Source of the DNA: a virus
Length of the DNA: 39,220 nt
Direction: 5' to 3' (one strand)
Virus record (IMG/VR): IMGVR_UViG_3300026483_000880
Span: 1-39,220 of that record
Both the position numbers and the translations under genes were made by a program. A model generated the notes under the pieces. That model was not told where the DNA came from. It saw only the letters and a list, made by a program, of their open reading frames with translations, and did not search any database. Each line of letters starts with the position of its first letter. Position 1 is the first letter of the stretch. Shown here piece by piece: positions 6,954 through 37,814 of this stretch.

Positions 6954-7694
6954 TTAGAATGGTTTATTTTTATCTTTATTTTCTAATTGTCCTTTAATCC
7001 AAAGTTTTCCTAGTGGATTTTTAATTGGTTTAGAAATTTGTTTAGCAATTTGTTTTTCTATTTGAGCTAAAATATCACCTCCATATTCAGAATTATCTAC
7101 AATTAACATATTACCTGCTCCGAATAATTTTTGAAATTTACCTAAGTTATCTTGAACCTCTTTCCACATCTTTTCAACCATCTTGTCTTCAAGTTTACGT
7201 TCTCTCATTCTGTTTCTCTCTAATGCAATATCTAATGATGTATTTACAAATACCATATAACAATCATATCCCATATCACGATATAAATTTCTATGTCCTT
7301 TTATTTTATCAAAGTTTTTACCAGTACCGTCAATTACTTGACCTAATTTTCCGCCTAAGTAATTATTTTGCATTCTTTTAGTAAGTCCTTTAGCTTTATC
7401 TCTGATTACCATTACTTTTTCCCATTCTTCTGGATCTTTGGCTAATTTAGATAAATCAGCAGGGCTATAACCTGCTTTTTTTAATCCTGCTTCAAACGCA
7501 TTATCATTATTGACTAGTTTCAATCCTGTTGCATATGACACCGAACTTACTACTCCTTTTGGAAAATTAAAAAGTTCTGTAGCAACATATGATTTACCAG
7601 AACCTGGTCCACCTGCCATAAAGAATGCCTTAAGAATTCCTTGATCATGAACACCTTCATCAATAAATTGTTCAAATAATTTTATTTTCTTCAT
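6954..7694 (-). CDS. P-loop kinase with capsid-targeting-like N-terminus
   Basis: 246 residues. Residues 1-13 (MKKIKLFEQFIDE, then G) match the T4 capsid-targeting pattern, with a likely prohead-protease cut after Glu13. The body begins with a Walker A motif GGPGSGKS (28-35) and continues as a polynucleotide-kinase/zeta-toxin-like P-loop domain: VIDGTGKNF about residues 120-130, VFVNTSLDIALERNRMRER as the lid-type Arg-rich helix. The reaction is therefore probably ATP-dependent phosphorylation of a nucleotide, nucleic-acid end or sugar nucleotide; the substrate cannot be told from sequence. It lies at the downstream end of the capsid-cargo block. Packaging in the head is inferred from the N-terminal tag. 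Confidence 0.8.
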   Translation of the reverse strand: MKKIKLFEQFIDEGVHDQGILKAFFMAGGPGSGKSYVATELFNFPKGVVSSVSYATGLKLVNNDNAFEAGLKKAGYSPADLSKLAKDPEEWEKVMVIRDKAKGLTKRMQNNYLGGKLGQVIDGTGKNFDKIKGHRNLYRDMGYDCYMVFVNTSLDIALERNRMRERKLEDKMVEKMWKEVQDNLGKFQKLFGAGNMLIVDNSEYGGDILAQIEKQIAKQISKPIKNPLGKLWIKGQLENKDKNKPF

Positions 7695-7710
7695 AATAGT
7701 TAACTGTGAT

Positions 7711-7726
7711 TTATAATCTATATATC
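7711..7726 (-). promoter_or_regulatory. Shared upstream motif GATATATAGATTATAA
   Basis: Minus strand, 17 bases before the kinase start at 7694. An identical 16-mer occurs 16 bases before the CTS-tagged gene starting at 12206. It is probably a late-type promoter core related to the GAATATATAAATAAA motif found elsewhere in the window. Confidence 0.45.
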
Positions 7727-7730
7727 ATAA

Positions 7731-7763
7731 AAAAAAGAGGTACCTTTAAAAGTACCTCTTTTT
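7731..7763 (-). terminator. Rho-independent terminator
   Basis: An inverted repeat AAAGAGGTAC / GTACCTCTTT with a short A/T loop and T-runs on both sides, placed just after the stop of the gene at 7788-9125. It probably works in both directions. Confidence 0.75.
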
Positions 7764-7787
7764 AGATTAAATAATTTTACTAAAATA

Positions 7788-9125
7788 TTATTCTTCCCAG
7801 ATCATCACTGTACCTGCGTCATAATATTCACTATAATATCCTCTTTTGTTTAGTTCTTTTTCCCATGAATTGAGTACACCGAATGTGTAATTTTTGTGAT
7901 CTTCAGAGTAATAATCGTAAATTCTTCTTCCTTTATACATATCAGCATCTTCAGCAGAAGCCCATAATCCGCCTTCTGTTCCATCAAATTCATCTGAAGT
8001 ACTTACGAATCTCAAATGCTTAGATACAAATTCTTTTAGTTTTTCTAAACTTACTTTAGCTTCATTAACATTAATGACTACTGATTCCATTGCAGCTTCA
8101 ATGTCCCATTGAATTCTTTGTAATGGATCTTCACCTCTATTACTTCTTTTAACAAAAGCAATAAGTCCTGGCTCAAATTTAGCATTTTGTGCCATTTCAA
8201 AACCATAACTTGAATCTTGTCCACCACCGTCATTATCATATGCTAAATCAGAAATCCATTTGTCATATTTTCTTTGGTTCCAATTTACTTTCTTAACTTT
8301 TTTTGCATGTGGTCCATCTCCTAATGAAGAGACTGCAGCATCATAAGAACCAGGTATAAATACACCTAAATAAGTTCCATCACCATATTTAACTTCTTTT
8401 CTAAATCTTTTTAAAGAATATTCACCACCTTCGATTTGTTTACGCTTTGTAACTTCTCCTTGTCTGTAACCTATTTCAATCTTTTTTTCTTCAGCAGTTT
8501 TAGGATCGATTTCGAAATGTAAAGATTTTACTAAATCTGCAATACCGTCAAATTTATTTTCGTTGATATTTGTATAATCATCAAATGTAGGAAATAAATT
8601 ATTAGATTCATACCAACCTTGTTCGTAATCGTCATCATCTTCATAATCATCATACTCAGGTTCTTGATACCATGATTGATTTGGATCAGTTTCTGCTTCT
8701 TCAGTAAAGTCATGTCTTTTCCATGGAAACTTTGGATTTTCAACTAATGCAGGGAATAGGACTTTATTACCTTTTGCTTTAGTTTTTAATTTCTTAGGTT
8801 CGAAAGCTAAAGTAATACCAATATCTCTCATTTCTGCTTTACCCATTGCTCTAATAGCTTTAAGTACTGCTTTATTTTCTAAGTCTTCTTCTGTATAACC
8901 ATTCATTTTGGCTAATAACTCATAATAGTCCATGTTACCAAATACACCATAACCTTCATATTTCTTTTCATGCCATTGATTACCTTCGTTATCAAACATG
9001 TATACATCAATAGTGTTTTCTCTTTCAGAACCTATTTGTACATCAGTATCATAAGTAATCCATGAGAATTGGCCTTCATTGATTGATTCTAAATTAAATT
9101 GTTTAAATGTTTTTTTAATTTTCAT
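7788..9125 (-). CDS. Multi-domain capsid-cargo protein with several possible protease sites (445 aa)
   Basis: The N-terminus MKIKKTFKQFNLESINE followed by Gly is a lengthened version of the capsid-targeting tag. Two further INE/VNE sites lie at domain borders: NINE189-N and NVNE355-A, the latter preceded by MESVV, a phrase also seen in the 671-residue protein. Cutting there would give about 17-, 172-, 166- and 90-residue pieces. Piece 2 has a phage-typical YEGYGVFGNMDYYELLAKMNG segment and an acidic end (YDDYEDDDDYEQ). Piece 3 is Lys-rich. Piece 4 carries KLKEFVSKHLRF and ends in TVMIWEE. No enzyme motif is recognised. The gene overlaps the upstream GDPD-like gene by 11 bases. Best reading: an internal head polyprotein. 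Confidence 0.7.
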   Translation of the reverse strand: MKIKKTFKQFNLESINEGQFSWITYDTDVQIGSERENTIDVYMFDNEGNQWHEKKYEGYGVFGNMDYYELLAKMNGYTEEDLENKAVLKAIRAMGKAEMRDIGITLAFEPKKLKTKAKGNKVLFPALVENPKFPWKRHDFTEEAETDPNQSWYQEPEYDDYEDDDDYEQGWYESNNLFPTFDDYTNINENKFDGIADLVKSLHFEIDPKTAEEKKIEIGYRQGEVTKRKQIEGGEYSLKRFRKEVKYGDGTYLGVFIPGSYDAAVSSLGDGPHAKKVKKVNWNQRKYDKWISDLAYDNDGGGQDSSYGFEMAQNAKFEPGLIAFVKRSNRGEDPLQRIQWDIEAAMESVVINVNEAKVSLEKLKEFVSKHLRFVSTSDEFDGTEGGLWASAEDADMYKGRRIYDYYSEDHKNYTFGVLNSWEKELNKRGYYSEYYDAGTVMIWEE

Positions 9126-9906
9126 TTTTATCGTATGTTTTTATATGATCAATTATCTCTGTGCTTGTTAACTTTTGGTCCCAACGTATAAAGAATGCTG
9201 TTTCATATGGATGAGAACCTATCATTTCATATATTGAAGCAATGTGAGTTTTATCCAAGTCATCAGATTCTTTCTCGTTATCAGCTAAATGAGAACGTAA
9301 TCCTTTAAAATTATATATCTTATTAAATTTAAGATCATTCTCTTTGTGATTTAATCGTTTAGAGCCATAGTATTCCAGATGATATCCCAACTCTGTTAGA
9401 GGAGTTATCATATTATCCTTATGATTCTTTATGGTTTTCTTGTTAGGCAGACCAGCTTCACCATAAAAACATATGGCTATCTGTTTTGACCATTTAGATA
9501 CAGTATCTGAACATACACCTAATACACCTTCAATTGCATCTGTATTATAGACTATTGTGCCTTTTGAAAAATCATTGTTATTAGACCATGCAAATCCTTG
9601 AGAAGTCATTGCTATTGAATCTAATTTATTATAAAAAAAATTTAGTGGTTTGGCATTTTCTAGTAGAAATGAAAATGTTGATGTATTCATGCAATTTACC
9701 CATAAATAATCTGCATTTTTAATAATCCATTCCCATGAAACTTCATTTTTAGGACCATCTTGTCCTAAAAAACATTTATCATGAATATACCATAAATCTA
9801 TTTTTACGTTATACCCTTGATCTATCGTTGAGTCTATATAATCTGGTGTATTTTCTAAAAGTGAATTAGGACCATTAATATTACCTCTGTTAGAAATTAA
9901 TAACAT
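9115..9906 (-). CDS. Degenerate GDPD-like protein (263 aa)
   Basis: The first 50 residues follow the glycerophosphodiester phosphodiesterase layout: ISNRGN at the usual HRG position, LLENTPDYIDSTIDQGYN, then KIDLWYIHDKCFLGQD where the family has E.D...HD. The first catalytic His is replaced by Asn and the first acidic residue by Lys, so classical GDPD activity is doubtful. The rest (ICFYGEAG, LEYYGSKRLNH) suits a sugar- or lipid-processing TIM-barrel family seen in surface polysaccharide loci. No signal peptide is seen. The gene sits inside the cargo block but has no targeting tag. It may be a relic enzyme or a binding protein. Fold call moderate, function uncertain. Confidence 0.6.
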   Translation of the reverse strand: MLLISNRGNINGPNSLLENTPDYIDSTIDQGYNVKIDLWYIHDKCFLGQDGPKNEVSWEWIIKNADYLWVNCMNTSTFSFLLENAKPLNFFYNKLDSIAMTSQGFAWSNNNDFSKGTIVYNTDAIEGVLGVCSDTVSKWSKQIAICFYGEAGLPNKKTIKNHKDNMITPLTELGYHLEYYGSKRLNHKENDLKFNKIYNFKGLRSHLADNEKESDDLDKTHIASIYEMIGSHPYETAFFIRWDQKLTSTEIIDHIKTYDKNEN

Positions 9907-9918
9907 GATGTTTATTAT

Positions 9919-10155
9919 TTATACGTCTGAAGTATTAGAAGTTTCAATCTTTTTACGAGACCGCCACCGAAATAAGATAGCCAATCCAAAGAATAATCCC
10001 GCCATAACATACATAACTAAATTGGCGTACCAAAGACTTCCAGTGATTGTCGTTAGCCAATATTGGATTACGTCGAACCCAAGAGGGTTGAAAAATAGAG
10101 CTATCATCATGCTCCAATTCGCTAGGCGGCTTGTTAAGTTTTTCGATATGTCCAC
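9919..10155 (-). CDS. Small two-helix membrane protein (78 aa)
   Basis: Two hydrophobic segments (about 18-38, MMIALFFNPLGFDVIQYWL; about 46-64, VMYVMAGLFFGLAILF) are followed by a basic stretch RWRSRKK and a polar tail. This inside-positive layout suits an inner-membrane holin-like or accessory protein. An overlapping frame starting at 10291 is longer but runs into the end of the neighbouring gene and has no convincing composition. The start at 10155 was chosen because it gives a compact membrane protein with little overlap. Function unknown. Confidence 0.6.
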   Translation of the reverse strand: MDISKNLTSRLANWSMMIALFFNPLGFDVIQYWLTTITGSLWYANLVMYVMAGLFFGLAILFRWRSRKKIETSNTSDV

Positions 10156-10196
10156 TACTGTCTCCTTCCATTATTTTAAAATACGATTTACTATTA

Positions 10197-11225
10197 TTAG
10201 TATTCAAATGGAGGTGTTCCATAATCTTTTTGTTGGATGCCATGCCATTTTCCTGCACTAAAAAAATACCACCATCCATATTTAGTATCATCTACTACTT
10301 TAAATTCTTTGGGTAATTTAACACTTTTTTTAGAAGCTCTAGCAATATACTTTAATACAGGAACTCCATCGTCCCATGTTTTAGCAGTTGATCTAGCATT
10401 TACTGATTGACCGTCTGAAAAAGCATCATATACTTTTGCATCATCAATTTCATCGGCTAATAAATCAGTTGCTGATTCATTAACACTTTCAGTTACCGCT
10501 CTTTTATACTGTGTTTGTAATTCTTTAAATTCAGTTTTAAGTTTAGAGGAAATAGTTTTCTTAATACCCCAATTATCTCCAAAGATTAGTGGAGCTACAG
10601 CGCCCATACCAGCAGTCTTAACTTGCTTTTCATATTTTCTAGCGTAAGTAGATCTATCAAACCAATCTAATGCCGCTTGAGCCATATCTTTAGATATTTT
10701 AACTCCTTCAATTTCAGAAGTACTACCATTAACTATCATTTTAAATAGTTTCTTAGCAGGTGCTTGTCTTGCTTCGTTTATAAACTCTTCAAATAACTTT
10801 ACCTCTACAAAGGATTTTAATGTCCTTTTAGATTCTTGGATTTTATTATCCTCATTGGAATAAAAATCATATCCTTTACCATCAACAAATCCATTTTTAT
10901 CGAATTTAACGTAACTTCCGGCTTCTATAGGATTATTAAAGTATGCTGAACACCTAGTGTTTAAATTTAGTAATTCTTTTTTAGCCTTGTTTTTAGTCAT
11001 ATCTTCACAAAAAATTCTAGCACTATGAAAACCACTAGCTACACGTATACCCTTATTAGTATCATAAATAGTCTGTTCTATAAATTTGTAATTTTTGCTT
11101 TCAGCTTCTTTAAAGTCGTTTGCTTCTTCTTCAGATTCAAATAAAGCTGCTATCCATTCTTCAGCTTTATCAAAACGGTTACCTTTTTCTGGGTTAGATC
11201 CCCATACTGTGTATACTTTTGCCAT
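10197..11225 (-). CDS. Fused protein with an internal capsid-targeting sequence (342 aa)
   Basis: Residues 1-135 form an untagged domain (MAKVYTVWGSNPEKGN, then ALFESEEEANDFKEAE). At 141-151 a complete targeting-type sequence appears inside the chain, EVKLFEEFINE followed by Ala, exactly like the N-termini of neighbouring proteins. Another possible cut is TESVNE250-S. The C-terminal part (DAKVYDAFSDG, VLKYIARASKKSVKLPKEF, YGWWYFFSAGKWHGIQ) is unrecognised. The natural explanation is a fusion of an older unrelated gene to a capsid-cargo gene, or a cargo protein with an added N-terminal extension. There is no Met at the internal tag; the nearest Met is Met76, far upstream of it, so an internal start at the tag is unlikely. 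Confidence 0.75.
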   Translation of the reverse strand: MAKVYTVWGSNPEKGNRFDKAEEWIAALFESEEEANDFKEAESKNYKFIEQTIYDTNKGIRVASGFHSARIFCEDMTKNKAKKELLNLNTRCSAYFNNPIEAGSYVKFDKNGFVDGKGYDFYSNEDNKIQESKRTLKSFVEVKLFEEFINEARQAPAKKLFKMIVNGSTSEIEGVKISKDMAQAALDWFDRSTYARKYEKQVKTAGMGAVAPLIFGDNWGIKKTISSKLKTEFKELQTQYKRAVTESVNESATDLLADEIDDAKVYDAFSDGQSVNARSTAKTWDDGVPVLKYIARASKKSVKLPKEFKVVDDTKYGWWYFFSAGKWHGIQQKDYGTPPFEY

Positions 11226-11236
11226 GTTATTATAAT

Positions 11237-11545
11237 TTAATTAATGTACATATTTAATTCATATCCAGCTGTTCCACTTCTACCGTATATTTGAACATGT
11301 AAAGCTTTCTTTTGTTCTTTGTCGTTTTTATATAAACTTAATGTATCTTTTTTAGTTGCACCTTCTTTTGGTTTAAAGAATGCATCAACATATGCATTAC
11401 CATATTCCTCACTATCAAGATGATAACCCTTTACTGCTGCGTATCTTTCAATTTCGTCTATAGTTGAAGAGTATGTTCTGTGATATATTTGAAAATCACC
11501 TCTTGACTCGCTCACGTACTCTTCAAACAATTTTACTTTTTTCAT
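11237..11545 (-). CDS. Small capsid-targeted protein, YVSE tag (102 aa)
   Basis: N-terminus MKKVKLFEEYVSE followed by Ser matches the targeting-and-cleavage pattern, with a cut expected after Glu13. The mature part of about 89 residues (IYHRTYSSTIDEIERYAAVKGY...AYVDAFFKPKEG...ALHVQIYGRSG) is a small alpha/beta domain of unknown function. It lies in a run of three tagged genes separated by 2-11 bases, so it is co-expressed with them. Most likely an internal head protein injected with DNA. Confidence 0.75.
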   Translation of the reverse strand: MKKVKLFEEYVSESRGDFQIYHRTYSSTIDEIERYAAVKGYHLDSEEYGNAYVDAFFKPKEGATKKDTLSLYKNDKEQKKALHVQIYGRSGTAGYELNMYIN

Positions 11546-11547
11546 AA

Positions 11548-11898
11548 TTAAAAGTTTAATTTTTTTATTTTTTTAATAATGGTTTTAACATCATCATCTT
11601 TATCACCATATACTGGAGATTCATTAGAACTATTCCAAACTGCCATATTAACTACAGTACCATCAGAATTAATGTTATATGAACCACCTGCATATTCGTC
11701 TCCGTCAATATCTAGGTCGAATGAGTCCTCTTCATAATCATCACTAACAGTGTATTCTTTACCGTCTAATTTTGTAAGAGCATCTGCAAATTTCTGTGCA
11801 ACCTTTAAAGTTTCTTTTTTAGAAAGACCAGCTCTGCTTTTTTTAGTTAAATGAGAAGTTTCATTAGTAAAATCTTCGAATAGTTTTACGTGTTTCAT
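11548..11898 (-). CDS. Small capsid-targeted protein, FTNE tag (116 aa)
   Basis: N-terminus MKHVKLFEDFTNE followed by Thr. The rest starts basic (KKSRAGLSKKETLKVAQKF) and then becomes very acidic (SDDYEEDSFDLDIDGDEYAGG), ending in a Lys-rich helix (IIKKIKKLNF). Acidic small internal proteins are common in T4-type heads and in anti-restriction or anti-defence cargo, but no specific family is recognised. It follows the FINE-tagged gene upstream by 5 bases and precedes the YVSE-tagged gene by 2 bases. Confidence 0.75.
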   Translation of the reverse strand: MKHVKLFEDFTNETSHLTKKSRAGLSKKETLKVAQKFADALTKLDGKEYTVSDDYEEDSFDLDIDGDEYAGGSYNINSDGTVVNMAVWNSSNESPVYGDKDDDVKTIIKKIKKLNF

Positions 11899-11903
11899 AA
11901 TAA

Positions 11904-12206
11904 TTATAATTTAAATTTAGCATCCTTAAACGCTTTTTTGATTTGCTTAGTTACGTCAGATTGAATACCTGGTCCTCTAAAGCTTCCACCTATTTCATAA
12001 GCTCTTTCTTTTACAGATTCTGCAAATGATTTTGCTTCATTATATACTTCCATTTCTAGTTCTTCTCTTCTCTCATCTTCGTCATCTGAAATAGTACCAT
12101 CAGCGTTCGCTTCTACAATAGGTTGTTTTTTAGAAGATTCACATGAGCAATTACCTCCGCATTCACATTCGTTTATAAAGTCTTCAAACATTTTTGTGTG
12201 TTTCAT
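11904..12206 (-). CDS. Small capsid-targeted protein with Cys cluster (100 aa)
   Basis: N-terminus MKHTKMFEDFINE followed by Cys. Directly after the likely cut come four Cys in CECGGNCSCE (14-23), which could bind a metal. Residues 35-60 are acidic (DGTISDDEDERREELEME), and the C-terminus is basic (VTKQIKKAFKDAKFKL). It is the first gene of the three-gene tagged run and has the GATATATAGATTATAA motif 16 bases upstream. Function unknown; head packaging inferred. Confidence 0.75.
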   Translation of the reverse strand: MKHTKMFEDFINECECGGNCSCESSKKQPIVEANADGTISDDEDERREELEMEVYNEAKSFAESVKERAYEIGGSFRGPGIQSDVTKQIKKAFKDAKFKL

Positions 12207-12221
12207 AATAAAATATATTTT

Positions 12222-12237
12222 TTATAATCTATATATC
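12222..12237 (-). promoter_or_regulatory. Shared upstream motif GATATATAGATTATAA (second copy)
   Basis: The same 16-mer as at 7711-7726, here 16 bases before the start at 12206. Both copies precede capsid-targeted genes, which fits coordinated late expression. Confidence 0.45.
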
Positions 12238-12738
12238 CTATTTATTTAACTCTAATTGTACTTTAGCCCAATAGTGTTCTGTTCTTGGATTTTTATATCC
12301 TCTTGGTCCACCATTCCAGTTTCTTGCAATAGTTTCAAAACCTCCTTCTGGATGATGATAGTTTTTCCAAATCAAAAACATTTCTATAGATTTATCTTTA
12401 CTAAATCTGTCCTTTAATTTAAACTTCTTTTTGATTTTCTGTTTTTTTAGAATTCTATTAACTTCTCTTACCATAATGGGTCTAAGTTGTAAAACTCCAA
12501 TTGAAGGCTCTTTTAGATGTGTATCACCTATTGCAGAATCATTGCCCATTGATTCTACTTGAATTAATGCCATAATTAATTTATCAATTTTTGGCTCAAT
12601 TACTATTTCTTCTATAGGCTTAGGTTCAATTCTCTCTACATGTTCAATAATTTTTCTAGAATGATCTGCTCTATAACTAGGCGATATCATAAAAGGTAAA
12701 AATGTAATTAACACTGCATTTCTTAAATTACTACGCAT
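12238..12738 (-). CDS. Lytic transglycosylase-like protein (166 aa)
   Basis: The N-terminus (RNAVLITFLPFMISP) is a hydrophobic signal-anchor or signal peptide, so the protein probably acts in the periplasm. The catalytic domain follows the soluble lytic transglycosylase/goose-lysozyme plan: LIMALIQVESMGND with the catalytic Glu62, then SIGVLQLRP (GxxQL-type motif at about 79-87), and ARNWNGGPRGY near the end, corresponding to the AYNGG motif of the family. It would cleave murein glycan strands. It could serve as endolysin or as an entry or assembly muramidase. The gene is 9 bases from the conserved protein gene upstream. Confidence 0.75.
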   Translation of the reverse strand: MRSNLRNAVLITFLPFMISPSYRADHSRKIIEHVERIEPKPIEEIVIEPKIDKLIMALIQVESMGNDSAIGDTHLKEPSIGVLQLRPIMVREVNRILKKQKIKKKFKLKDRFSKDKSIEMFLIWKNYHHPEGGFETIARNWNGGPRGYKNPRTEHYWAKVQLELNK

Positions 12739-12747
12739 AATGTTTTT

Positions 12748-13122
12748 TTAAGATAAACTAAAACTCTGTATATTTAAACTATCATTAAATTCTTTCTCTT
12801 CTTGTTTTTCCCATTTACTAGTTTCAACTCTATCATGAACTGAAATAGGAGCATCTGATGGGAATCTTGAATCTGATGTGTAGATAAAATTACCACCAGC
12901 CATAGAGTGTCTTCCACTTTTAAATAATCCTGCAGGAACTGCGTAATTAGATTGTTTTCCAAATATTGTTCTTTCAACGAGTATCAACTCATCATCTGGA
13001 ATTAAGTCAGTTTGTAAATTTTGTCCATAGTGAAGAATAATGCTATCTTCTCTAGAAGTTAAACCATTGTTTGTACAATCACCTAGTGAATTTCTTAGTA
13101 CGAATGTTAAAATTGTGTCCAT
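12748..13122 (-). CDS. Small conserved phage protein, copy A (124 aa; paralogue at 36197)
   Basis: Start set at 13122 (MDTILTFVLRNSLGD) because the paralogue at 36197 begins at the same point (MSNILTFVLRNSMGD) and the upstream extension would run through a terminator. Both share the core SREDSIILHYG, LIPDDEL.LVER, YAVPAGL and SDSRFPS.AP..VHDRVE. Copy A has a longer acidic tail (KWEKQEEKEF). The fold is unknown, though the short conserved motifs suggest a compact beta-rich domain. It is preceded by the same type of promoter as its paralogue. Confidence 0.75.
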   Translation of the reverse strand: MDTILTFVLRNSLGDCTNNGLTSREDSIILHYGQNLQTDLIPDDELILVERTIFGKQSNYAVPAGLFKSGRHSMAGGNFIYTSDSRFPSDAPISVHDRVETSKWEKQEEKEFNDSLNIQSFSLS

Positions 13123-13158
13123 CTCTATTTGTTTTTTAATTATACTACTAATATACCA
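13123..13158 (-). promoter_or_regulatory. Promoter-like element shared with the paralogue
   Basis: On the minus strand, T-run, then GGTATATTAGTAGTATAATT, then A-rich leader before the start at 13122. It matches in order and spacing the conserved elements at 29875-29940 and 36118-36183 (T-run, CTTATATTAGTA, GTAATAAT). TATATTAG resembles the Bacteroidetes TAnnTTTG box. Confidence 0.5.
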
Positions 13159-13161
13159 AAA

Positions 13162-13191
13162 AAAAGCCAAATAAAAAAATATTTGGCTTTT
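13162..13191 (-). terminator. Rho-independent terminator
   Basis: Perfect 12-bp stem AAAAGCCAAATA / TATTTGGCTTTT with an A-rich loop and T-runs, located just after the stop of the 13216-15231 gene. Confidence 0.8.
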
Positions 13192-13215
13192 TATTTTTAA
13201 AAAGTTACGAACAAT

Positions 13216-15231
13216 TTAAAATACGAATTGAAAAGTCTTTAATAGATCTTTAGCTTTAATAGAATCTGCATCTACACCAAACTCATCATATAGTTTTTGA
13301 TACATTTCATCCCATAAATCTTGATCTGCTAAATCATTTAATACTTCTTTATTATCTCTAATGAATTTTTTTACATCACCTCTAATATCTTCATTTACTT
13401 CAGTGTCTAATGCAAATTTTTCAACTAGTGAATCTAATGTTACTTCAACTACTGATTCTTCTAATTCGTCAATAAATTCTTGAACATCACCGCCGTCATT
13501 TAATGAGTATGTAAATTCATCTTTAGCTTTATTAGAAATAATTACAGTATCGCCTTTGATTTCAGCCTTCATGTTTTTCATTCCTTTAAGTGCTTGTTGA
13601 ATAAGTATTAAAGCATCATCTGAATTCTGACCATAACTTCTTTCATTCACTGATTCCATTAAACCAATTGCAATATCTCCAACTTCTCTATCACCACCAT
13701 CAACATACTTCTTGTTTAGTATTGCGAATTTAAAACCGTCTGCTTTTATCATATACATTGGCATCATACCAGTACTAAAGTCATATTTGTAATTACCAGC
13801 TTTTAATTCTTTACCAACATTCATAAATGATTTAGCATTTCCTACTAAATCAGCTAAATTGTCTAAGTGTGTTCCAGCATCATCTTTTTCATTGATTGTT
13901 TTTGCTTCATAAACTTCTATAGCATCTTCTATATCTTGTAAGTCCATACCAAAGTTTTCAGCATGAGCTACTGCATAATCAACTAATTCACTATAACCAA
14001 GATCTTTTCTTGCATCTTCCCATTCTTTTCTAGTTTTTCTATCATCGGAATTTCCATATGCATCGTCTAAGAAATCGATTAAAACTTCTTCGTCTTTTGT
14101 ATTTAAATAAGAATCTATTGCCATTAATTCTCTATTTTCACTTAAGCCTTGTTCTTTATTTTGTTCTTTAGCAAAAGCAAATGCATCTTCTTCAAGTTCA
14201 AAACATTTAACTAATGTATCGCCTTCCCAAACACCATATGGTGTTTCTGGTTTATCACAATGTCTTACTTCATATTTGTCATTTGGATTTTCGCTGTGAT
14301 GTTCAGTAACTTCTTTTGCCCAACCAACTTTATGATTTTTAGCATATTGCGCATGTGCCAATGGCATAAAATATTCATCACGTTGCTTTTTATTTAACAA
14401 TTTCCAATAAGCATCAACTAAGTCTCCGCGACCATTGTCTGAATGTCCACCAATTTCCGCATAATGTGCAAGAGCTTTTTCAAATTCTTTACTAGAACCT
14501 TCAGTAATAACTACTGATTCAGCTAATTCTGCATGAACATCTTTTAAACCTACAGCATCGTCTAATTGAGATAGTAAATCTTTTTTCTGTGCAGTTAATG
14601 CTCTTAGTTTTTCTAATAGTTCAGTCTTTCTGTCACCTTCAGCTGCTTTCCATTCTTCAACAGTAGTTACCATGTCTTTTACAACTTGGCCATACTCTTT
14701 TTGAATTTTAGTAATTGATTTGCCTTCTTCTAACTTAGTTTCATTATTTTCGAATGCATATAATTCTTTGGCTGATTTAAGTTTCTTACCTGCTTTTTCA
14801 GGATTACTAGGATCTGGATGTGCTAATAAACCAGCATCAATTAATCTATCAAATATTTCATCTCTTACTAAACTGAAGTCAATAGAATCACTAGAATTGT
14901 CCCAAGTTTGGGCAACATATTCAGGATCTATCCAACCATAACCTTTTTTAATATCATTAACCATATCTTTGAAATCCATTTCAAATTGCTTAACTCTACC
15001 TTCATTTACTGTAATTATAGCACTAGATAGTGATTTAACCGCTGTTAATTTATCTGTAAAAAGATTTAAAGCCTCGTTTAATACAACAGGTTCTTTAATA
15101 TCCTCTACAATTTTAGTAGCTTTAATAGGACTTTTAGTTTCAGATATCAATAAAGCTTCTTTAATTACTTCTGCAGAATATAAATTTATTGCAGAGTCAT
15201 TTTTATTATTGAAATTTATAAATGATGACAT
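13216..15231 (-). CDS. Possible internal-head polyprotein, 671 aa
   Basis: No enzyme motif is recognised. At least six protease-type sites of the same kind as the cargo tags are spread along the chain: LNE53-A, VNE77-G, ITE244-G, INE448-K, VNE530-R and VNE614-D. Several are preceded by ESV or ESVV. They lie at plausible borders between helical blocks, e.g. VKQFEMDFKDMVNDI after 77 and SSKEFEKALAHYAEIGGH after 244. One segment has VWEGDTLVKCFELEEDAFAFA; another has MPMYMIKADGFKFAILNKK. The protein is strongly acidic overall. It has its own late-promoter-like motif and terminator, so it is a single-gene unit. It could be a head-core or scaffold protein, or a chain of injected proteins cut during maturation. 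Confidence 0.65.
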   Translation of the reverse strand: MSSFINFNNKNDSAINLYSAEVIKEALLISETKSPIKATKIVEDIKEPVVLNEALNLFTDKLTAVKSLSSAIITVNEGRVKQFEMDFKDMVNDIKKGYGWIDPEYVAQTWDNSSDSIDFSLVRDEIFDRLIDAGLLAHPDPSNPEKAGKKLKSAKELYAFENNETKLEEGKSITKIQKEYGQVVKDMVTTVEEWKAAEGDRKTELLEKLRALTAQKKDLLSQLDDAVGLKDVHAELAESVVITEGSSKEFEKALAHYAEIGGHSDNGRGDLVDAYWKLLNKKQRDEYFMPLAHAQYAKNHKVGWAKEVTEHHSENPNDKYEVRHCDKPETPYGVWEGDTLVKCFELEEDAFAFAKEQNKEQGLSENRELMAIDSYLNTKDEEVLIDFLDDAYGNSDDRKTRKEWEDARKDLGYSELVDYAVAHAENFGMDLQDIEDAIEVYEAKTINEKDDAGTHLDNLADLVGNAKSFMNVGKELKAGNYKYDFSTGMMPMYMIKADGFKFAILNKKYVDGGDREVGDIAIGLMESVNERSYGQNSDDALILIQQALKGMKNMKAEIKGDTVIISNKAKDEFTYSLNDGGDVQEFIDELEESVVEVTLDSLVEKFALDTEVNEDIRGDVKKFIRDNKEVLNDLADQDLWDEMYQKLYDEFGVDADSIKAKDLLKTFQFVF

Positions 15232-15248
15232 ATTTTTGATTGTATATT

Positions 15249-15263
15249 TTTATTTATATATTC
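15249..15263 (-). promoter_or_regulatory. Late-promoter-like motif GAATATATAAATAAA
   Basis: The same 15-mer as at 1098-1112, again 18 bases before the start codon (15231). It contains the T4 late consensus TATAAATA. Confidence 0.5.
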
Positions 15264-15737
15264 TTATTTCTTTCCAGAACCACCTTTTCCTTTTCCAGAA
15301 CCTTTTCCAGAACCTTTTCCAGAACCTGATCCACTAGAACTACCCTTTCCTGATCCTCCTATAATTTCACCTGCACCAGAACCTGATCCACTAGATACAT
15401 TTTTTCCAGTTTTAGCTTTTCTTTTAGCTGGTTTCTTTTTAGCTGGCGCTTTTTTAGCAGCTGGTTTTCTACCTTTTCTAGTTTTACCTGCTGCTGCTTC
15501 TGCAACATCAGATGCTTGATCCAATAATTCTTTAGATGCTTTTTTAACATCACCAATTTCAGCTTTAACGTTTTTAGCTCTACGCTTTACTTCTTTCTTA
15601 ATAGAATCTACTTTGTCTTCTACTACGTCTGCAATAAAGTCACCGTCTTTATCTTCGATTTTACCCTTTTTGATCAAAAGGAAATAGGCACCAGCGGCTA
15701 CCGCTAATAATGCCAATACAATTAATGTTGTGCTCAT
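15264..15737 (-). CDS. Membrane-anchored H1-like Lys/Ala/Gly/Ser-rich protein (157 aa)
   Basis: Residues 1-22 are one membrane helix (TTLIVLALLAVAAGAYFLLI). Then comes KIEDKDGDFIADVVEDKVD, which resembles a small calcium-binding DxDxD loop, followed by a basic helical stretch (KKEVKRRAKNVKAEIG). Residues about 85-112 are Lys/Ala/Pro-rich like the tail of histone H1 (GRKPAAKKAPAKKKPAKRK), and the end is repeated Gly-Ser-Gly-Lys. The charge suggests DNA or polyanion binding at the membrane. Possible jobs are DNA condensation, entry-pore or envelope attachment. No family is recognised. A YtxH-like small membrane protein is an alternative for the N-terminal half. Confidence 0.7.
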   Translation of the reverse strand: MSTTLIVLALLAVAAGAYFLLIKKGKIEDKDGDFIADVVEDKVDSIKKEVKRRAKNVKAEIGDVKKASKELLDQASDVAEAAAGKTRKGRKPAAKKAPAKKKPAKRKAKTGKNVSSGSGSGAGEIIGGSGKGSSSGSGSGKGSGKGSGKGKGGSGKK

Positions 15738-15807
15738 AATTTTTGTTTTTTATTTAATTAAATTCTTATTACTTATACTATTTATCCGTCTTTTGTTTCA
15801 TAAAAGA

Positions 15808-15833
15808 AGAAAGCAGCCTTTTGGCTGCTTTTT
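15808..15833 (-). terminator. Rho-independent terminator
   Basis: Stem AAGCAGCC / GGCTGCTT with a TTTT loop and flanking A/T runs, 13 bases after the stop of the gene at 15846. Confidence 0.8.
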
Positions 15834-15845
15834 CATTGAGTTTGT

Positions 15846-16016
15846 TTAAGCTGGACCACCGACCCCGAAATGGACCCAATTTGCGTAATCATCCGCAGTG
15901 TTTTGAAGATCTTCTACGTTTACTTCGAATACTTGATCATTCTTAACACTTGTAACTTCTACGGTTGTTGAATCACTCTCAGGAACCGACGCAGCTCCTG
16001 GAATTAATTCAGCCAT
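15846..16016 (-). CDS. Small acidic protein (56 aa)
   Basis: Start placed at 16016 (MAELIPGAASVPESD); nine extra codons upstream are possible. The protein is beta-prone and acidic (TTVEVTSVKNDQVFEVNVEDL) and ends WVHFGVGGPA. It is isolated by a terminator on one side and a 96-base leader on the other, so it is transcribed alone, which often marks highly expressed virion or decoration proteins. Function not recognised. Confidence 0.65.
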   Translation of the reverse strand: MAELIPGAASVPESDSTTVEVTSVKNDQVFEVNVEDLQNTADDYANWVHFGVGGPA

Positions 16017-16112
16017 TATAAAACACGTTATTTTTAGAGACAAGAACTTTATCGTTCTCTTATATTATATATCACGTTTTATAATATAGTTTCTTAATAT
16101 AATACTATTTTT

Positions 16113-16859
16113 TTAAATATTTTTTAAATTATTTACAAGCCAGTCTAATTCTACTTGACTACCTGAATCTGAGATGGCATTTTCAGGATCTGGGTGTGTT
16201 TCAACGAACACTCCATCATATTCAAATATACGAGCTGCTTGAGAATATTGCTTTGCCAATTTACGACTTCCTCCTGTAATACCGTCACCTGCCATTTGAG
16301 TAGAGTGTGTACAATCAAAGATAACTTTGTCTGCAAATTCTTTCATTACATCAACACCTCTAAAATCTACAATTAATCTATCATATCCAAAGTTAGAACC
16401 TCTTTCAGTAAGCCAAACTTGACAATTAGGATTTACTTCTTTAATTTTAGTAACAGCATGTTTCATAGCATCTGCCGATAACCACTGTCCTTTCTTAACA
16501 TTAATAGTATTGAAATGTTTTGCACACTCTACTAATAGATCTGTTTGTCTACATAAGAATGCTGGAATTTGAATTACATCTACCACATCAGATAATGGTA
16601 ATGCTTGACTTGTTTCATGAATGTCAGTAACTATTTTAATATCAGGAAATCTATCTTTGACATTTCTCATAATATTAATACCTTCGTCCAAACCTGGACC
16701 TCTATTAGAGTGAATTGAAGTTCTATTAGCTTTATCGAAACTGCCTTTAAGATACCAATCTTTTCCATTCATTAATGGATAAAGTGTTTCAGCAACTAAC
16801 ATGAAGTTGTCCTCGTTCTCAATACTACAAGGACCTAGTATGTATGTGTAATCTTGCAT
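16113..16859 (-). CDS. kdsA: 3-deoxy-D-manno-octulosonate 8-phosphate synthase (KDO-8-P synthase)
   Basis: Condenses phosphoenolpyruvate with arabinose 5-phosphate, the first step to KDO of lipopolysaccharide, in the cytosol. Family motifs appear in order: GPCSIEN, KGSFDKANRTSIHSNRGPG, VTDIHE, IQIPAFLCRQTDLL, NVKKGQ, TERGSNFGYDRLIVDFRG, FDCTHSTQ and FVETHPDPENAISD. The Cys in GPCSIE and the downstream His, Glu and Asp are those of the metal-dependent class (as in Aquifex). The protein is 248 residues, some 20-35 shorter than usual, missing mainly the C-terminal helix. It stands alone between unrelated phage genes, so it is probably an acquired host-type gene. Together with the phosphomannomutase and RmlD-like genes it suggests phage control of host surface sugars. 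Confidence 0.93.
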   Translation of the reverse strand: MQDYTYILGPCSIENEDNFMLVAETLYPLMNGKDWYLKGSFDKANRTSIHSNRGPGLDEGINIMRNVKDRFPDIKIVTDIHETSQALPLSDVVDVIQIPAFLCRQTDLLVECAKHFNTINVKKGQWLSADAMKHAVTKIKEVNPNCQVWLTERGSNFGYDRLIVDFRGVDVMKEFADKVIFDCTHSTQMAGDGITGGSRKLAKQYSQAARIFEYDGVFVETHPDPENAISDSGSQVELDWLVNNLKNI

Positions 16860-16911
16860 TTTTATATTCGTTTATAGATGTTATACGAATAAATTTAGAA
16901 TGGTTTATTTT

Positions 16912-18525
16912 TTATCTAGATTCAAGCCCTATGTTTTTATTAAATGGCTCATTTGCCCCAGTTCCTGCGCTAAACTGAAACCTTGCGGCTGCAAAATCTT
17001 TAATTTTAAATTGAATGCCTGTTGATTTTACACCTATTAATAAATACAACTGTTGAACTGAACTGACTCTGTTTACCATAGAAGATAAACCGTCAACATA
17101 TACTTTATTGCTATTTATAGTTTTTACTAGTTCCTGAGAAATAGGATAAAAAATAACACCAAACCTATATTGGTCGTTTTTCTTAAGTCTTTTAGCATAA
17201 TATGTTACTGCTGATTGTTCATTCTTACAACCATCAGGCCTGGAACCTGTTTTGCTCCAAAATTCATCCATTATTTTATACCATTCTCCTTGATCTCTAT
17301 TAAATAGTTCATCTACTTTTTCATGAAGTATATGCCTAGAAACTTCCATATTGTTTATTCCTAATTTATCTAAAATAGACCTATATCCGGAAGTTTTATT
17401 GTTATATAAAAGACTATTTGCTAAAACAATATTTGTTAGCCATACATTTGATTGTCTTCCTTGATTAGGCTCTTTAGTATATCCTCCATTTGTTTTAGGA
17501 TCAGCAATCACTTTGATTATATCATCATATGTTTTTCTTTCAGACTTGTCTAAAACAAAATTCTGTTCGGAATTCTTATCAGAAACTCTATTATGTATTA
17601 TTTCACACATCGTGACGATAGATGGAGTTCCTCCTTTTTTACCAGCTTTTGAAGATATGTCCCATCCATCAAAATGAAAATCTACTAACGCAGCATTTGC
17701 TCCTTGTGGAAAACTTAAGCCCGTCCCAGGATCGCTAACTGCACTGAATAAAAATATACCTCCTAATATTTCTCCAAAATCATTTGCTATTTTTGCTAAT
17801 GAAACCGAGTCTATTCCATATTCTTCTTGTATATTTTTACCAAAATCCAATTCAAAACTTTGACCTGCTTCTTTAAGAAATGTTTTTAAATTCCCGGGAA
17901 TTTTATATGTATCTTGATTTCTAGTATACTCTACTAGATCTTTAATATAGTCTATGTATGGTTTAGGAAAGGTGTTACCGTATTTTTTTTCAACTGCATC
18001 AATAGCTGCTTTACATATAATATCTATTGTTCCATAAGTAGCTCCCTTTCCATCTAGTCCTAGAGCCTTAGGTGTTAATTTACCTCTTCCTATTATTGCT
18101 TTTTCTCCGGTTTTTGTTTTAGCCACATTACTTACAATAAGATATTCTTCACCTTTTAAAAAAGTTTCAGTTCCAATATTAATATCTTTTAGTATCGTAA
18201 CAACTACGGTTGGAAATGTTCCGGAAAGTGATTTGTCATCTCCAGGATATTGTATTTCAATTTCAAAATAATCTTTAGGTAAACCAGATGCTATTAACAT
18301 TTGAGTTGTATTGTCAGTTGGTTCTACCCCTAAATCTGCTCTTAATTGTTCACCTGTACCAAATTTAGTGATCGCACCTGGATAAGAAGCAGATTTCATC
18401 CAATCAGTATATGCTGAGTTAAAAAATTCTCTTTTGTAATTATATTTGACTTTCTCATTTATTTCAGCTTGTTTTCTGTTCATTGCAATCTGAAAGTTAT
18501 TTCTAATATCTCCGAATGTACTCAT
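16912..18525 (-). CDS. Large unknown protein, probably virion-associated (537 aa)
   Basis: Not confidently recognised. The N-terminal 40 residues are helical and basic (RNNFQIAMNRKQAEINEKVKYNY; AEINE followed by Lys resembles a protease site). The middle contains FHFDGWDISSKAGKKGGTPS, a phrase like those in large structural or end-binding proteins of T4-type marine phages. The protein ends RFQFSAGTGANEPFNKN. No signal peptide or membrane helix is seen. Its stop lies next to the HAD phosphatase start side (1 base apart from 18527), so the two are co-transcribed with the phosphatase first. A structural, packaged or nuclease-like role are all possible. Confidence 0.65.
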   Translation of the reverse strand: MSTFGDIRNNFQIAMNRKQAEINEKVKYNYKREFFNSAYTDWMKSASYPGAITKFGTGEQLRADLGVEPTDNTTQMLIASGLPKDYFEIEIQYPGDDKSLSGTFPTVVVTILKDINIGTETFLKGEEYLIVSNVAKTKTGEKAIIGRGKLTPKALGLDGKGATYGTIDIICKAAIDAVEKKYGNTFPKPYIDYIKDLVEYTRNQDTYKIPGNLKTFLKEAGQSFELDFGKNIQEEYGIDSVSLAKIANDFGEILGGIFLFSAVSDPGTGLSFPQGANAALVDFHFDGWDISSKAGKKGGTPSIVTMCEIIHNRVSDKNSEQNFVLDKSERKTYDDIIKVIADPKTNGGYTKEPNQGRQSNVWLTNIVLANSLLYNNKTSGYRSILDKLGINNMEVSRHILHEKVDELFNRDQGEWYKIMDEFWSKTGSRPDGCKNEQSAVTYYAKRLKKNDQYRFGVIFYPISQELVKTINSNKVYVDGLSSMVNRVSSVQQLYLLIGVKSTGIQFKIKDFAAARFQFSAGTGANEPFNKNIGLESR

Positions 18526-18526
18526 A

Positions 18527-19126
18527 TTATTTTATTGCTTTTATTGTTGATATATTTATCCCATCGTATTCGTCTTCTAATGATTTTACTAATTTTAGGT
18601 TAGCATCGTCATCATCATAAAACTGCATATCATTGTAACCCATTTCTATAAGTTCTTTGAATGCTGCTTTTTTACGATCAGATATATTACCTTTGAATTT
18701 GTGAATAGGATCATTAACTGCAAATATTAATTCATAATCAATTCTATATCCTACGTGTTCTCTTAGCCATTTATGAATCATTTTACGATCATCTCTTGCC
18801 GTAACAATTCCTACTGCTAATTTTGACTTATAAGCTTCTTTGAATATTTTAAGATAATATTCTATTAATTTACCGGCTTTCATAATCTCTAAAGATTTAA
18901 ACTCGTCAAAGTTTAATTCTTCATGTTCACCTTTTTCATATGTATTGAATTCTTCAGGTGTTAGAGAATAACATTCACCTGTTTTTTTATTACACACCTT
19001 GATTTTTGCAGAAGATATAACTAATGTATCATCAAGATCAAATACAAGAATTTTAGACCCATGATATGGTTTACCTGGCCTTCTTGCTTCATTTAAATAA
19101 GCTTCATATCTTTTAACGTATTTCAT
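18527..19126 (-). CDS. HAD-family phosphatase with capsid-targeting-like N-terminus (199 aa)
   Basis: N-terminus MKYVKRYEAYLNE followed by Ala fits the targeting tag. The HAD core is complete: FDLDDT (nucleophile Asp30, Asp32), VTARDDR (motif II Thr109), a Lys in SDRKKAA, and FYDDDDAN (acidic motif III, about 169-176). The cap is small, as in the phosphatase half of T4 polynucleotide kinase-phosphatase and related nucleic-acid or nucleotide 3'-phosphatases. The substrate is not certain; an acid-phosphatase-type role is the alternative. With the tagged kinase at 6954 and the tagged ligase at 36522 it could form a packaged end-repair set. Confidence 0.82.
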   Translation of the reverse strand: MKYVKRYEAYLNEARRPGKPYHGSKILVFDLDDTLVISSAKIKVCNKKTGECYSLTPEEFNTYEKGEHEELNFDEFKSLEIMKAGKLIEYYLKIFKEAYKSKLAVGIVTARDDRKMIHKWLREHVGYRIDYELIFAVNDPIHKFKGNISDRKKAAFKELIEMGYNDMQFYDDDDANLKLVKSLEDEYDGINISTIKAIK

Positions 19127-19156
19127 CTTAAGTTATATAAACCCTTTTAAAAAAGT

Positions 19157-19420
19157 TTATTTATTATTTTCTTGTCTTATTTTAATGGCAGCAGTTTTAA
19201 TATCTAATTTTACTATTTGTGCTTGTAAAGAAAGTTTTTGTGCAGCGATCGCATGTAACTCGGATTTCAATGGATCCTCTTCTTCTCTTTGCTTTTTAGC
19301 AGTATCAGCGGCCTTTATCTTGATATCGGTTTTCTTTTTATCTAAATCTCTAATCTTTTGATTTAAGTCAGCAACTTTTTGTGCATCTTCGTAAATCTTT
19401 TGTGTTTTAATGTGTTTCAT
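19157..19420 (-). CDS. Small coiled-coil protein with degenerate targeting-like N-terminus (87 aa)
   Basis: Almost the whole chain is charged helix with heptads (LNQKIRDLDKKKTDIKIKAAD; LQAQIVKLDIKTAAIKI). The start MKHIKTQKIYEDAQ looks like an eroded version of the MKH.K.FE.F.NE tag, with ED-A at the cut position. It overlaps the mini-MscS-like gene by 14 bases. Function unknown; a packaged or scaffold-associated helix is a weak suggestion. Confidence 0.65.
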   Translation of the reverse strand: MKHIKTQKIYEDAQKVADLNQKIRDLDKKKTDIKIKAADTAKKQREEEDPLKSELHAIAAQKLSLQAQIVKLDIKTAAIKIRQENNK

Positions 19421-20685: not shown

Positions 20686-21078
20686 TTATATATCACCCAT
20701 ATATTTATCTCTAACTCTACTACTGACAGAAATTGCTTCACCTTGTTCGTCTACTCTTACAAATTTAATATGTGTTGCAAGTATAATGCCTTGTTTACCG
20801 TTGTATACATTATGTGATCTTGCTTCAACTTTTAGGGTGACAGATGAGTTTCCTATTGTTTCTACTTCACCGTATATTTTAAGGAGATGTCCTTCTTTTG
20901 CTGGTTTTTTAAAAACACATTTATCTATGAGAACTGTTACCATTCTTGGTGTATCGCATACTTGGGAAGCATATGCAGCTCCCGCTGCGTCAACCCATGC
21001 TAATAATTTTCCACCAAAAAGATTGCCATGAAATCCCAAGTCGGACTTCTTGACCGGATGCGTACTTATTAACTCCAT
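20686..21078 (-). CDS. Hotdog-fold acyl-CoA thioesterase, copy A
   Basis: 130 residues with the YciA/ACOT-like signature GFHGNLFGGKLLAWVDAAGAAYA, then VTVLIDKCVFKKPAKEGHLLKIYG and SVTLKVEARSHNVYNGKQ. The Asp in WVDAAG is the expected catalytic residue. It would hydrolyse acyl-CoA in the cytosol. A second copy of about 80% identity lies at 35119 on the other strand; copies differ mostly in the C-terminal third. Which acyl chain is used cannot be told. It abuts the lipoprotein gene upstream (adjacent start and stop), so it is in an operon with envelope proteins. Confidence 0.9.
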   Translation of the reverse strand: MELISTHPVKKSDLGFHGNLFGGKLLAWVDAAGAAYASQVCDTPRMVTVLIDKCVFKKPAKEGHLLKIYGEVETIGNSSVTLKVEARSHNVYNGKQGIILATHIKFVRVDEQGEAISVSSRVRDKYMGDI

Positions 21079-35117: not shown

Positions 35118-35118
35118 T

Positions 35119-36521: not shown

Positions 36522-37814
36522 ATGAAAGAATTAAAACTTACACAAGAATTTGTAAACGAATCTAATTCAACAAATTCAAACACGGACAAGATTAACGTAA
36601 TTAAGAAGTATTCTAATCAACCAGATGTTCTTAAAGTGCTGCAGTATACATACGACACGTTTAAACAGTATTATGTTACTTCAAAAAACTGTAAGAAGAG
36701 AAGTGATCTAGTGCTTCCTTTCGGATCTTATACTGATATCTTCTCTTTGTTAGATGCATTGAGTTCTCGACAAATAACTGGTCATTCTGCGATTGAAGCG
36801 GTAAATACATTTGTAGAAGAGAATAAAGAATACTCTGATCTTATTTGGAATATCATTGACGGAAACCTAAAAACTAGGTCAACTATTTCTATGATTAATA
36901 AAGTTGTACCGGGTTTAATTCCAACCTTTGACGTAGCACTCGCTCAAGCGTATGACGAAAAGACTAAAAAGAAAGTAGATTGGAATGACGGATGGTATGT
37001 TAGTCGTAAACTAGATGGTGTTAGATGTCTAGCAATTATTGATGATAAAGGAGATGTTAATTTCTATAGTAGAGCAGGAAAAGAATTTACAACACTAGAT
37101 TCTTTGAAACCTTCTATCCAAAGATTAGGTCTTACGAATATGGTGTTTGATGGTGAAGTTTGTATGGTAGATGAAAATGGAAATGAAGATTTCCAAGGTA
37201 TCATTAAGCAAATTAAAAGAAAAGATCATACTATTACAAATCCATTTTATCATATCTTTGATTTATTGACCATTAAAGAATTTAACGATAAAGAATCTAT
37301 TACCTCTTTTAGTGAAAGACAATCTAACCTTAGAGCGTATGTTCTAGATGGCGATCAATTTATTAGCCACCTTGTTCAAATGTTAGGAGATGATCTTGTA
37401 ATGGAAAGAATGATGGAACTATCGAAAGAAGGAGGATGGGAAGGACTAATGCTTCGTAAGAATACAACATACCAAGGAAAACGTTCTAGTGATGTTCTTA
37501 AGGTTAAGAAATTCTATGATGATGAATATTATGTAGTTGATTTAGAGAATGCTCTTAATAGAGTTATCGTTGACGGGAAAGAAGTTGAAGAAATGATGCT
37601 TAAGAATGTTGTAGTTGAACATAAAGGAAGTAGAGTTCAGGTTGGTTCTGGTTTTTCACATGAACAAAAAAGATTTTATTTTAAAAATCCTGATAAAATT
37701 CTAGGAAAGCAAATCACTGTTCAATATTTTGAAGAAACTACAAATCAACATGGAGAACATTCACTTAGGTTCCCTGTGATCAAAGCGGTTTATGAAACAG
37801 AGCGTACCTTTTAA
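36522..37814 (+). CDS. ATP-dependent DNA ligase with capsid-targeting-like N-terminus (430 aa)
   Basis: Seals nicks in DNA through a Lys-AMP intermediate. Motif I KLDGVR gives nucleophile Lys163; FDGEVC (209-214), EGLMLRK (307-313) and VLKVKKF (325-331) are motifs III, IV and V. The C-terminal OB-fold (VEHKGSRVQVGSGF) closes the enzyme. The N-terminus MKELKLTQEFVNE followed by Ser is strikingly like the T4 capsid-targeting sequence, and is much like that of the other cargo proteins. A packaged ligase would be new to me. An alternative is that the similarity is by chance in an N-terminal helix. The gene is 1 base after the conserved small protein gene. Confidence 0.9.
   Translation: MKELKLTQEFVNESNSTNSNTDKINVIKKYSNQPDVLKVLQYTYDTFKQYYVTSKNCKKRSDLVLPFGSYTDIFSLLDALSSRQITGHSAIEAVNTFVEENKEYSDLIWNIIDGNLKTRSTISMINKVVPGLIPTFDVALAQAYDEKTKKKVDWNDGWYVSRKLDGVRCLAIIDDKGDVNFYSRAGKEFTTLDSLKPSIQRLGLTNMVFDGEVCMVDENGNEDFQGIIKQIKRKDHTITNPFYHIFDLLTIKEFNDKESITSFSERQSNLRAYVLDGDQFISHLVQMLGDDLVMERMMELSKEGGWEGLMLRKNTTYQGKRSSDVLKVKKFYDDEYYVVDLENALNRVIVDGKEVEEMMLKNVVVEHKGSRVQVGSGFSHEQKRFYFKNPDKILGKQITVQYFEETTNQHGEHSLRFPVIKAVYETERTF

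Follow-up and report, generated by a model that had tools for sequence, protein, structure and literature searches.

Why do proteins with unrelated bodies, encoded by one viral genome fragment, begin with almost the same short peptide? The question arises from a 39,220-bp linear IMG/VR fragment (G000; "the window" below means this whole stretch), for which a first-pass annotation had quoted eight N-termini and likened them to the capsid targeting sequence (CTS) of the internal proteins of phage T4. Each of the eight was located in the sequence at the gene to which it had been assigned. We conclude that the 13-residue tag MK[HYK][IV]KLFExF[IVL]NE↓, where the arrow marks the cleavage-type site, is very probably a T4-type CTS, a confidence that extends to the whole reading of loading, cleavage and delivery. 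The tag, the unrelated bodies behind it, the setting of protease and core genes in related contigs, and the motif at module boundaries are read directly from the sequences.

The tag in the window and across IMG/VR

We scored start contexts with a 12-position weight matrix trained on the tags of two relatives only (G001 and G004, see below), with the window left out, and shuffled all 515 window start contexts in 200 rounds as a chance control. Shuffled starts gave a mean best score of 2.4 bits and a single best of 16.1, with 0.055 starts per shuffle at 8 bits or above. The window genes concerned are the following.

6954..7694, minus strand: P-loop kinase, tagged, 246 residues; tag MKKIKLFEQFIDE↓G at 7656-7694; 30.5 bits
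7788..9125, minus strand: putative cargo polyprotein (modules A to C); tag with a longer spacer, MKIKKTFKQFNLESINE↓, at 9075-9125; 9.0 bits
Modules of 7788..9125, minus strand, by homology: A, 8559-9074; B, 8061-8558, after INE↓; C, 7791-8060, after VNE↓
10197..11225, minus strand: putative cargo polyprotein with a tag inside it, FVEVKLFEEFINE↓A at 10773-10811; 25.9 bits; module 1 spans 10812-11225
Further modules of 10197..11225, minus strand, by homology: 2, 10476-10772; 3, 10200-10475, after ESVNE↓
11237..11545, minus strand: 102-residue protein, tagged; MKKVKLFEEYVSE↓S at 11507-11545; 20.2 bits; homologue in L151 tagged MKHTKLFEQFITE↓
11548..11898, minus strand: 116-residue protein, tagged; MKHVKLFEDFTNE↓T at 11860-11898; 37.8 bits
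11904..12206, minus strand: 100-residue protein, tagged; MKHTKMFEDFINE↓C at 12168-12206; 29.1 bits
13216..15231, minus strand: probable further cargo polyprotein, 671 residues; IPI-like start MSSFINFNN..., by homology
18527..19126, minus strand: HAD-type phosphatase, tagged, 199 residues; MKYVKRYEAYLNE↓A at 19088-19126; 14.3 bits
19157..19420, minus strand: degenerate candidate, 87 residues, unproven; starts MKHIKTQKIYED
36522..37814, plus strand: DNA ligase, untagged, native N-terminus; 14.9 bits

The starts at 11548, 6954, 11904 and 11237 each exceed chance, and related contigs share the tag, which bears out the claim that at least six of the N-termini form one family. The starts at 36522, 18527 and 7788 are weaker taken alone and were settled by homology: 18527 and 7788 were accepted as tagged because homologues support them, the low score of 7788 reflecting a cleavage-type site that sits farther downstream than in other tags. 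The copy internal to open reading frame (ORF) 10197-11225 had been overlooked in the first-pass annotation. The ligase, which had been listed among the tagged proteins, is not one: it aligns over its full length with the ligase of G001 (61% identity, residue 4 against residue 2 onward), whose untagged N-terminus is MLNRLQQFVDQSNATNSN, so that the start at 36522 is native ligase sequence and a tag on it was ruled out. The degenerate N-terminus MKHIKTQKIYED is present as quoted, but its standing as a tag is unproven, as it scored below 2 bits and had no homologue here.

A nucleotide search of the window against phages returned no match, while the kinase at 6954 used as a query retrieved 13 IMG/VR loci, including G001 (166,616 bp, 66% identity) and G004 (66,623 bp). 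G001 alone carries about 21 tagged starts above 14 bits among its 186 ORFs of at least 60 residues and, as this contig was found via the kinase body, these starts are not a product of tag searching. Further, shorter or divergent G001 starts (MNFQDFLNE, MNKLFTYEEFLTE, MSNTIKTFNEYLTE and MSKKILSFEEYVRE, at 66117-68648, 73060-74349, 81707-82087 and 122280-122849) indicate that the real number of tagged proteins is probably higher.

Searching IMG/VR with a degenerate tag pattern at the codon level, we obtained at least 120 stretches, against none for a control with scrambled codons and 16 for one with reversed order and no ATG constraint; together with the shuffled starts, these controls rule out a chance origin of the tag. 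The tagged starts collected amount to 290 distinct proteins, whose bodies fall into 155 clusters (111 with a single member), which confirms both that the tag sits on unrelated bodies, enzymes included, and that the system is much larger than first described. An alignment of 140 cluster representatives yielded the consensus MKHIKLFExFxNE, with almost nothing conserved past residue 13. Numbering back from the cut (P1 being the Glu), P7 is aromatic in 286/290, P4 aromatic in 288/290, P3 aliphatic in 254/290 and P1 Glu in 260/290, and P3 is I, V or L in 235 of the 260 ORFs with Glu at position 13. Because the search pattern fixes several of these positions, we also counted the 143 tagged ORFs outside it, where P7 is aromatic in 139, P4 aromatic in 141, P3 aliphatic in 124 and P1 Glu in 113; these were still chosen by similarity to the tag matrix, and the fully independent evidence is that of G001. 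Synonymous codon variation in the tag is about that in the bodies, one peptide occurring in 17 copies with 16 DNA sequences. This normal variation, combined with 155 unrelated bodies, argues that selection acts on the peptide, and a DNA or RNA element in its place is ruled out by the codon variation.

Prohead protease, head genes and the T4 parallel

The closest known parallel is the CTS of T4 IPI, IPII and IPIII, which is likewise short, N-terminal and carried by unrelated bodies, and which in T4 is cut by an S77 prohead protease. In the T4 record, IPII and IPIII start MKTYQEFIAE and IPI starts MKTFKEFTSTTTPVSTITE. PMC9026906 reports mutagenesis of IPIII in which positions 4 and 7 govern targeting and positions 8 and 10 processing, states that gp21 cleavage follows L/I-X-E, and describes the tag of T4 IPIII as enough to bring a foreign protein into the capsid. 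With the scissile Glu as the anchor of the alignment, T4 positions 4, 7, 8 and 10 fall exactly on P7, P4, P3 and P1, so that the conserved aromatics, the aliphatic P3 and the Glu coincide with the mapped T4 positions and the proposed common plan holds. The window tag at 7788 further resembles IPI in having a longer gap ahead of the cut-type site. The two systems differ in that the tag here has 13 residues with K2, K5 and L6 conserved, against 10 in T4; that Val is accepted at P3; that cargo also occurs in apparently cleavable polyproteins; and that one relative (G001) has about 21 tagged ORFs whereas T4 has only a handful. T4 packs few internal proteins; IPI inhibits a restriction enzyme, and an anti-defence role is suspected for IPIII (PMC3012670, PMC9391042).

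The first-pass annotation had proposed looking outside the window for a gp21-like prohead protease, and the relatives have one. G001 and G004 each encode a PF03420 Peptidase_S77 protein above cut-off; a search with the family profile hit the solved structure of T4 gp21 (5jbl, E=1.4e-6), the alignment taking in both the His and the Ser region, and LGELDHP and SSRA, both in regions that align to 5jbl, are invariant in 10 protease sequences. In both contigs the portal gene is followed by that of the tagged acidic protein, then by the protease with its fused scaffold-like region and then by the capsid protein, with one extra tagged gene ahead of the capsid gene in G004; in T4, the order is 20, 67, 68, 21, 22, 23. 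Like T4 gp67 (PIP), the acidic protein is encoded between portal and protease; unlike gp67, it bears the cargo tag on its own N-terminus. The ORF in the gp67 position is tagged, or carries a close variant, in 10/12 protease loci examined; this acidic protein had no Pfam match. A coiled-coil tagged protein adjoins the major capsid gene. The protease lies ahead of the capsid gene as gp21 does, but differs from gp21 in its fusion to an acidic, coiled-coil scaffold-like region (638-648 residues in all), as annotated in Tenacibaculum phage PTm1. The fusion at G001:43482-45410 (L018) also has repeated YSExVAEKxDQ-like units, each with a possible V-A-E cut site. PF03420 is present in 24/50 tagged contigs, and the family profile adds 3 more.

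Other phages offer partial parallels. In Chryseobacterium phage MA9V-2, MKTFTYFINE↓A occurs at the place of gp67, while no repeated tag was found in the stretches examined of Tenacibaculum phages PTm1/pT24 and the uncultured phage LR756500. A cultured counterpart is Sphingomonas phage PAU (JQ362498; portal 31% identical over 93%), in which 18 proteins start MK[TSG][LI]xxL[YF]E, many of them around the portal, protease, scaffold and capsid genes, and four of the five proteins annotated as "internal capsid protein" carry the PAU tag (P=5e-5). Its dialect, MKT[LI]xxLYExxLNE↓A, differs in lacking the P7/P4 aromatic spacing. As the PAU capsid protein has 585 residues and a mature form of 520 by N-terminal sequencing (PMC5646251), its cut lies within one residue of LME↓N. 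In phiKZ-type heads, many packaged proteins are similarly cut after Glu by a gp21-type protease, at S/A-X-E, and the phiKZ passages of PMC9026906 describe no shared short N-terminal tag. Searches of the open-access literature on capsid targeting turned up T4 and giant-phage work, and nothing describing this dialect or cargo polyproteins.

Modules, cut-type sites and candidate cargo

In an alignment of 11 kinase orthologues, including those of pelagiphage HTVC008M and Methylophilales phage Melnitz, E13-G14 is invariant and the junction reads x-x-E↓G in 11/11, with I, L or M at P3 except in L011 (NIME↓G), whereas the part upstream of the kinase body can be a complete tag, just a few residues or a different domain. 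Agrobacterium phage Atu_ph07 has a further N-terminal region fused to the kinase, with VTE↓G in between.

Bodies that stand behind a tag in one contig recur inside longer ORFs elsewhere. At 41 non-redundant junctions from 18 module families, [ILVM]xE lies within 3 residues of the predicted boundary in 32, compared to 13.7% at random positions (p=2e-20); at least one of the 41 is a tagged start that has an ATG upstream of it, and dropping it leaves the picture unchanged. The window itself has several such arrangements. In ORF 7788-9125, module A comes after SINE↓, module B after INE↓ and module C after VNE↓; module A recurs internally in L068 (IAE↓GQFSW), and modules B and C are the bodies of tagged ORFs in L135 (LNE↓GIFDS) and L068 (FVNE↓AKSI), respectively. 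In ORF 10197-11225, module 2 follows FINE↓ and module 3 follows SVNE↓, while elsewhere module 2 begins after MKYIKPLNE↓ (L055) and module 3 after MKHIKLFEAFVNE↓ (L041). The module of 11548-11898 is embedded in a larger ORF of L059 after LDE↓, and that of 11904-12206 is internal in L107 and L086. The simplest reading of the window fusions is that they are polyproteins which the prohead protease would split. ORF 13216-15231, whose start has aromatics 3 apart and then cleavage-type sites, is homologous to tagged ORFs in L005 and L059 and to modules in L121/L110, and is probably a further polyprotein that would be cut in the same way.

Module 3 (10200-10475), which at least nine other loci also encode within tagged or fused proteins, was predicted alone to fold with a mean predicted local distance difference test score (pLDDT) of 95.9, and a fold search of PDB and BFVD gave no match at E≤0.001; it may be an effector or core fold. 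The kinase at 6954-7694 has Pfam matches to AAA_33/Zeta_toxin, and its nearest folds are bacterial polynucleotide kinase and zeta toxin. In its AlphaFold2 model, residues 1-12 have pLDDT <50 and the kinase domain is confidently predicted, so that the tag is modelled as disordered and the body as folded. The HAD protein at 18527-19126 matches phrog_415 polynucleotide kinase (E=1.9e-11), and it is possible, as a suggestion only, that the two form a packaged RNA end-repair pair. In homologues of 18527 (L013, L059, L063, L078), the body is preceded only by MIKE↓, MLNE↓, MNE↓ or MLKE, as if the targeting part had been lost and the cut-type site alone kept.

Beyond the window, tagged proteins include Tad3, a family of inhibitors of type I Thoeris (PF25185; L172:1372-2121, E=4.8e-22; L174, E=3.3e-15), and near each tagged Tad3 lies a tagged 2H phosphoesterase. 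The one in L172 (2435-2974) scored 27.3 bits against the Acb1 cut-off of 27, the others tested falling below it, and both HxT motifs are kept in 8/8 members of the tagged 2H family. Further tagged enzymes are a cytidylyltransferase/NMNAT-like protein (also at G001 71200-71796) and a CCA tRNA nucleotidyltransferase, and CHAP, GNAT, PAP2 and HD domains also occur behind the tag. Scans of the tagged bodies against Pfam, PHROG and NCBIfam named none as an internal head protein (T4 IPI-III/Alt); a weak match to an ADP-ribosyltransferase family (ART-PolyVal), below cut-off, in a tagged protein (L013:3855-4319, L031:2254-4590) marks a possible T4 Alt analogue. From these domains, the likely cargo roles are anti-Thoeris, 2H phosphoesterase/anti-CBASS, and nicotinamide adenine dinucleotide (NAD) and tRNA/RNA repair.

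Proposed delivery, its alternatives and other genes of the window

We propose that the aromatics at P7 and P4 attach tagged proteins to the scaffold core of the prohead as this core grows, and that the phage's own gp21-like S77 protease would then cleave after Glu ([ILV]-x-E↓). The body, released within the head, would remain there during DNA packaging before entering the host with the DNA. Part of the cargo would be produced as polyproteins, with a copy of this cleavage motif between one module and the next. The cargo would provide immediate countermeasures and repair at the start of infection, the window's share being the polynucleotide-kinase-like kinase and the HAD phosphatase. Core binding, cleavage, retention, injection and cargo function are the steps that we infer, injection by analogy with T4. 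The earlier view of the peptide as a delivery tag is thus supported as its likely function by the relatives' protease, the gp67 context and the T4-mapped positions, its inclusion of the ligase being the part that was wrong.

Several observations weigh against this proposal. The window fragment has neither head genes nor a prohead protease, and two of its tags depart from the strict L/I-X-E of T4, reading VSE (Val at P3) and TNE (Thr at P3). Several tagged contigs above 100 kb, which are perhaps incomplete or encode a divergent protease, had no S77 match by PF03420 or the family profile, nor had the two contigs with tagged Tad3; the control for the protease association, in which PF03420 occurred in 0/16 contigs, is a small set of mostly short ones. 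Two of the four Tad3 homologues found are untagged, and the tag has therefore been gained or lost on one and the same body. The PAU record, finally, gives no basis for its "internal capsid protein" label.

Among the alternatives, the one that survives best is nevertheless improbable. It holds that the tag does lead to the prohead core but that the tagged proteins are assembly aids (scaffold, core or vertex factors) destroyed before packaging, none being delivered. The gp67-like acidic tagged protein beside the protease and the coiled-coil one beside the major capsid gene would suit such a role, as would the degradation of T4 gp67 and gp22 by gp21 that PMC9026906 reports in its T4 passages; yet Tad3, 2H phosphoesterase, NMNAT-like, CCA-transferase and kinase bodies have no assembly role, and a motif at module edges is expected for release, not destruction. 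We give very little credence to the idea that the N-terminus targets another site in the infected cell, such as a replication compartment, the tail or a membrane. The context evidence does stem from relatives, the window being without head genes, and the tagged genes of the window have tail-fibre-like and accessory genes in their vicinity, but the spacing is that of the T4 CTS with its mapped determinants, tagged genes flank the portal, protease and capsid genes, and the cut motif fits S77 specificity and is found at module junctions. Least credible of all is a third view, in which the peptide has no function and the common N-termini either go back to shared ancestry or recent gene conversion between paralogues, or constitute a conserved DNA or RNA element. 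Tagged genes are frequently in tandem, like duplicates, but the body clusters are unrelated, nothing is conserved past residue 13, synonymous codons vary, and kinase orthologues swap N-terminal extensions yet keep x-x-E↓G.

Within the capsid-targeting reading, we lean, by a narrow margin of belief, towards a general cargo-loading system in which a lineage-specific dialect and one prohead protease would pack a large, exchangeable effector set, partly as polyproteins cut in the head. This set would include pre-made inhibitors of nucleotide-signalling immunity (Tad3 beside an anti-CBASS-type 2H phosphoesterase) and NAD/tRNA repair, acting before phage gene expression. New relative to T4 would be a dialect common to many genomes, an expanded cargo, cargo polyproteins and likely anti-immune cargo. 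The T4 principle would then serve as a broad platform in T4-like phages that are uncultured and apparently infect Bacteroidota, with more than 150 body clusters behind one peptide. Since the tag can be read from sequence, hundreds of "hypothetical proteins" become predicted virion cargo that can be mined for immune inhibitors, and if the general system is real, the tag is a search key for new anti-defence proteins. The tagged Tad3 and Acb1-like proteins raise the question of whether pre-loaded anti-immune proteins can beat early-acting defences, and the cargo polyproteins and lineage dialects offer a handle on cargo recognition by the core.

As to the host, the window genes at 28218-29495 and 25002-25739 encode proteins of a secreted type that bear sorting domains for type IX secretion (CHU_C, E=1e-13; cohesin and Por_Secre_tail), which suggests that the host belongs to the Bacteroidota and that its type IX secretion system exports phage proteins. 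An untagged DAHP/KDO-8-phosphate-type synthase (PF00793, E=3e-52) lies at 16113-16859, amid the tagged-gene region. A 4HBT thioesterase gene occurs twice on opposite strands (20686-21078 and 35098-35517), the copies being nearly identical over much of their length, and around position 28000 both gene direction, from minus to plus, and GC skew switch.

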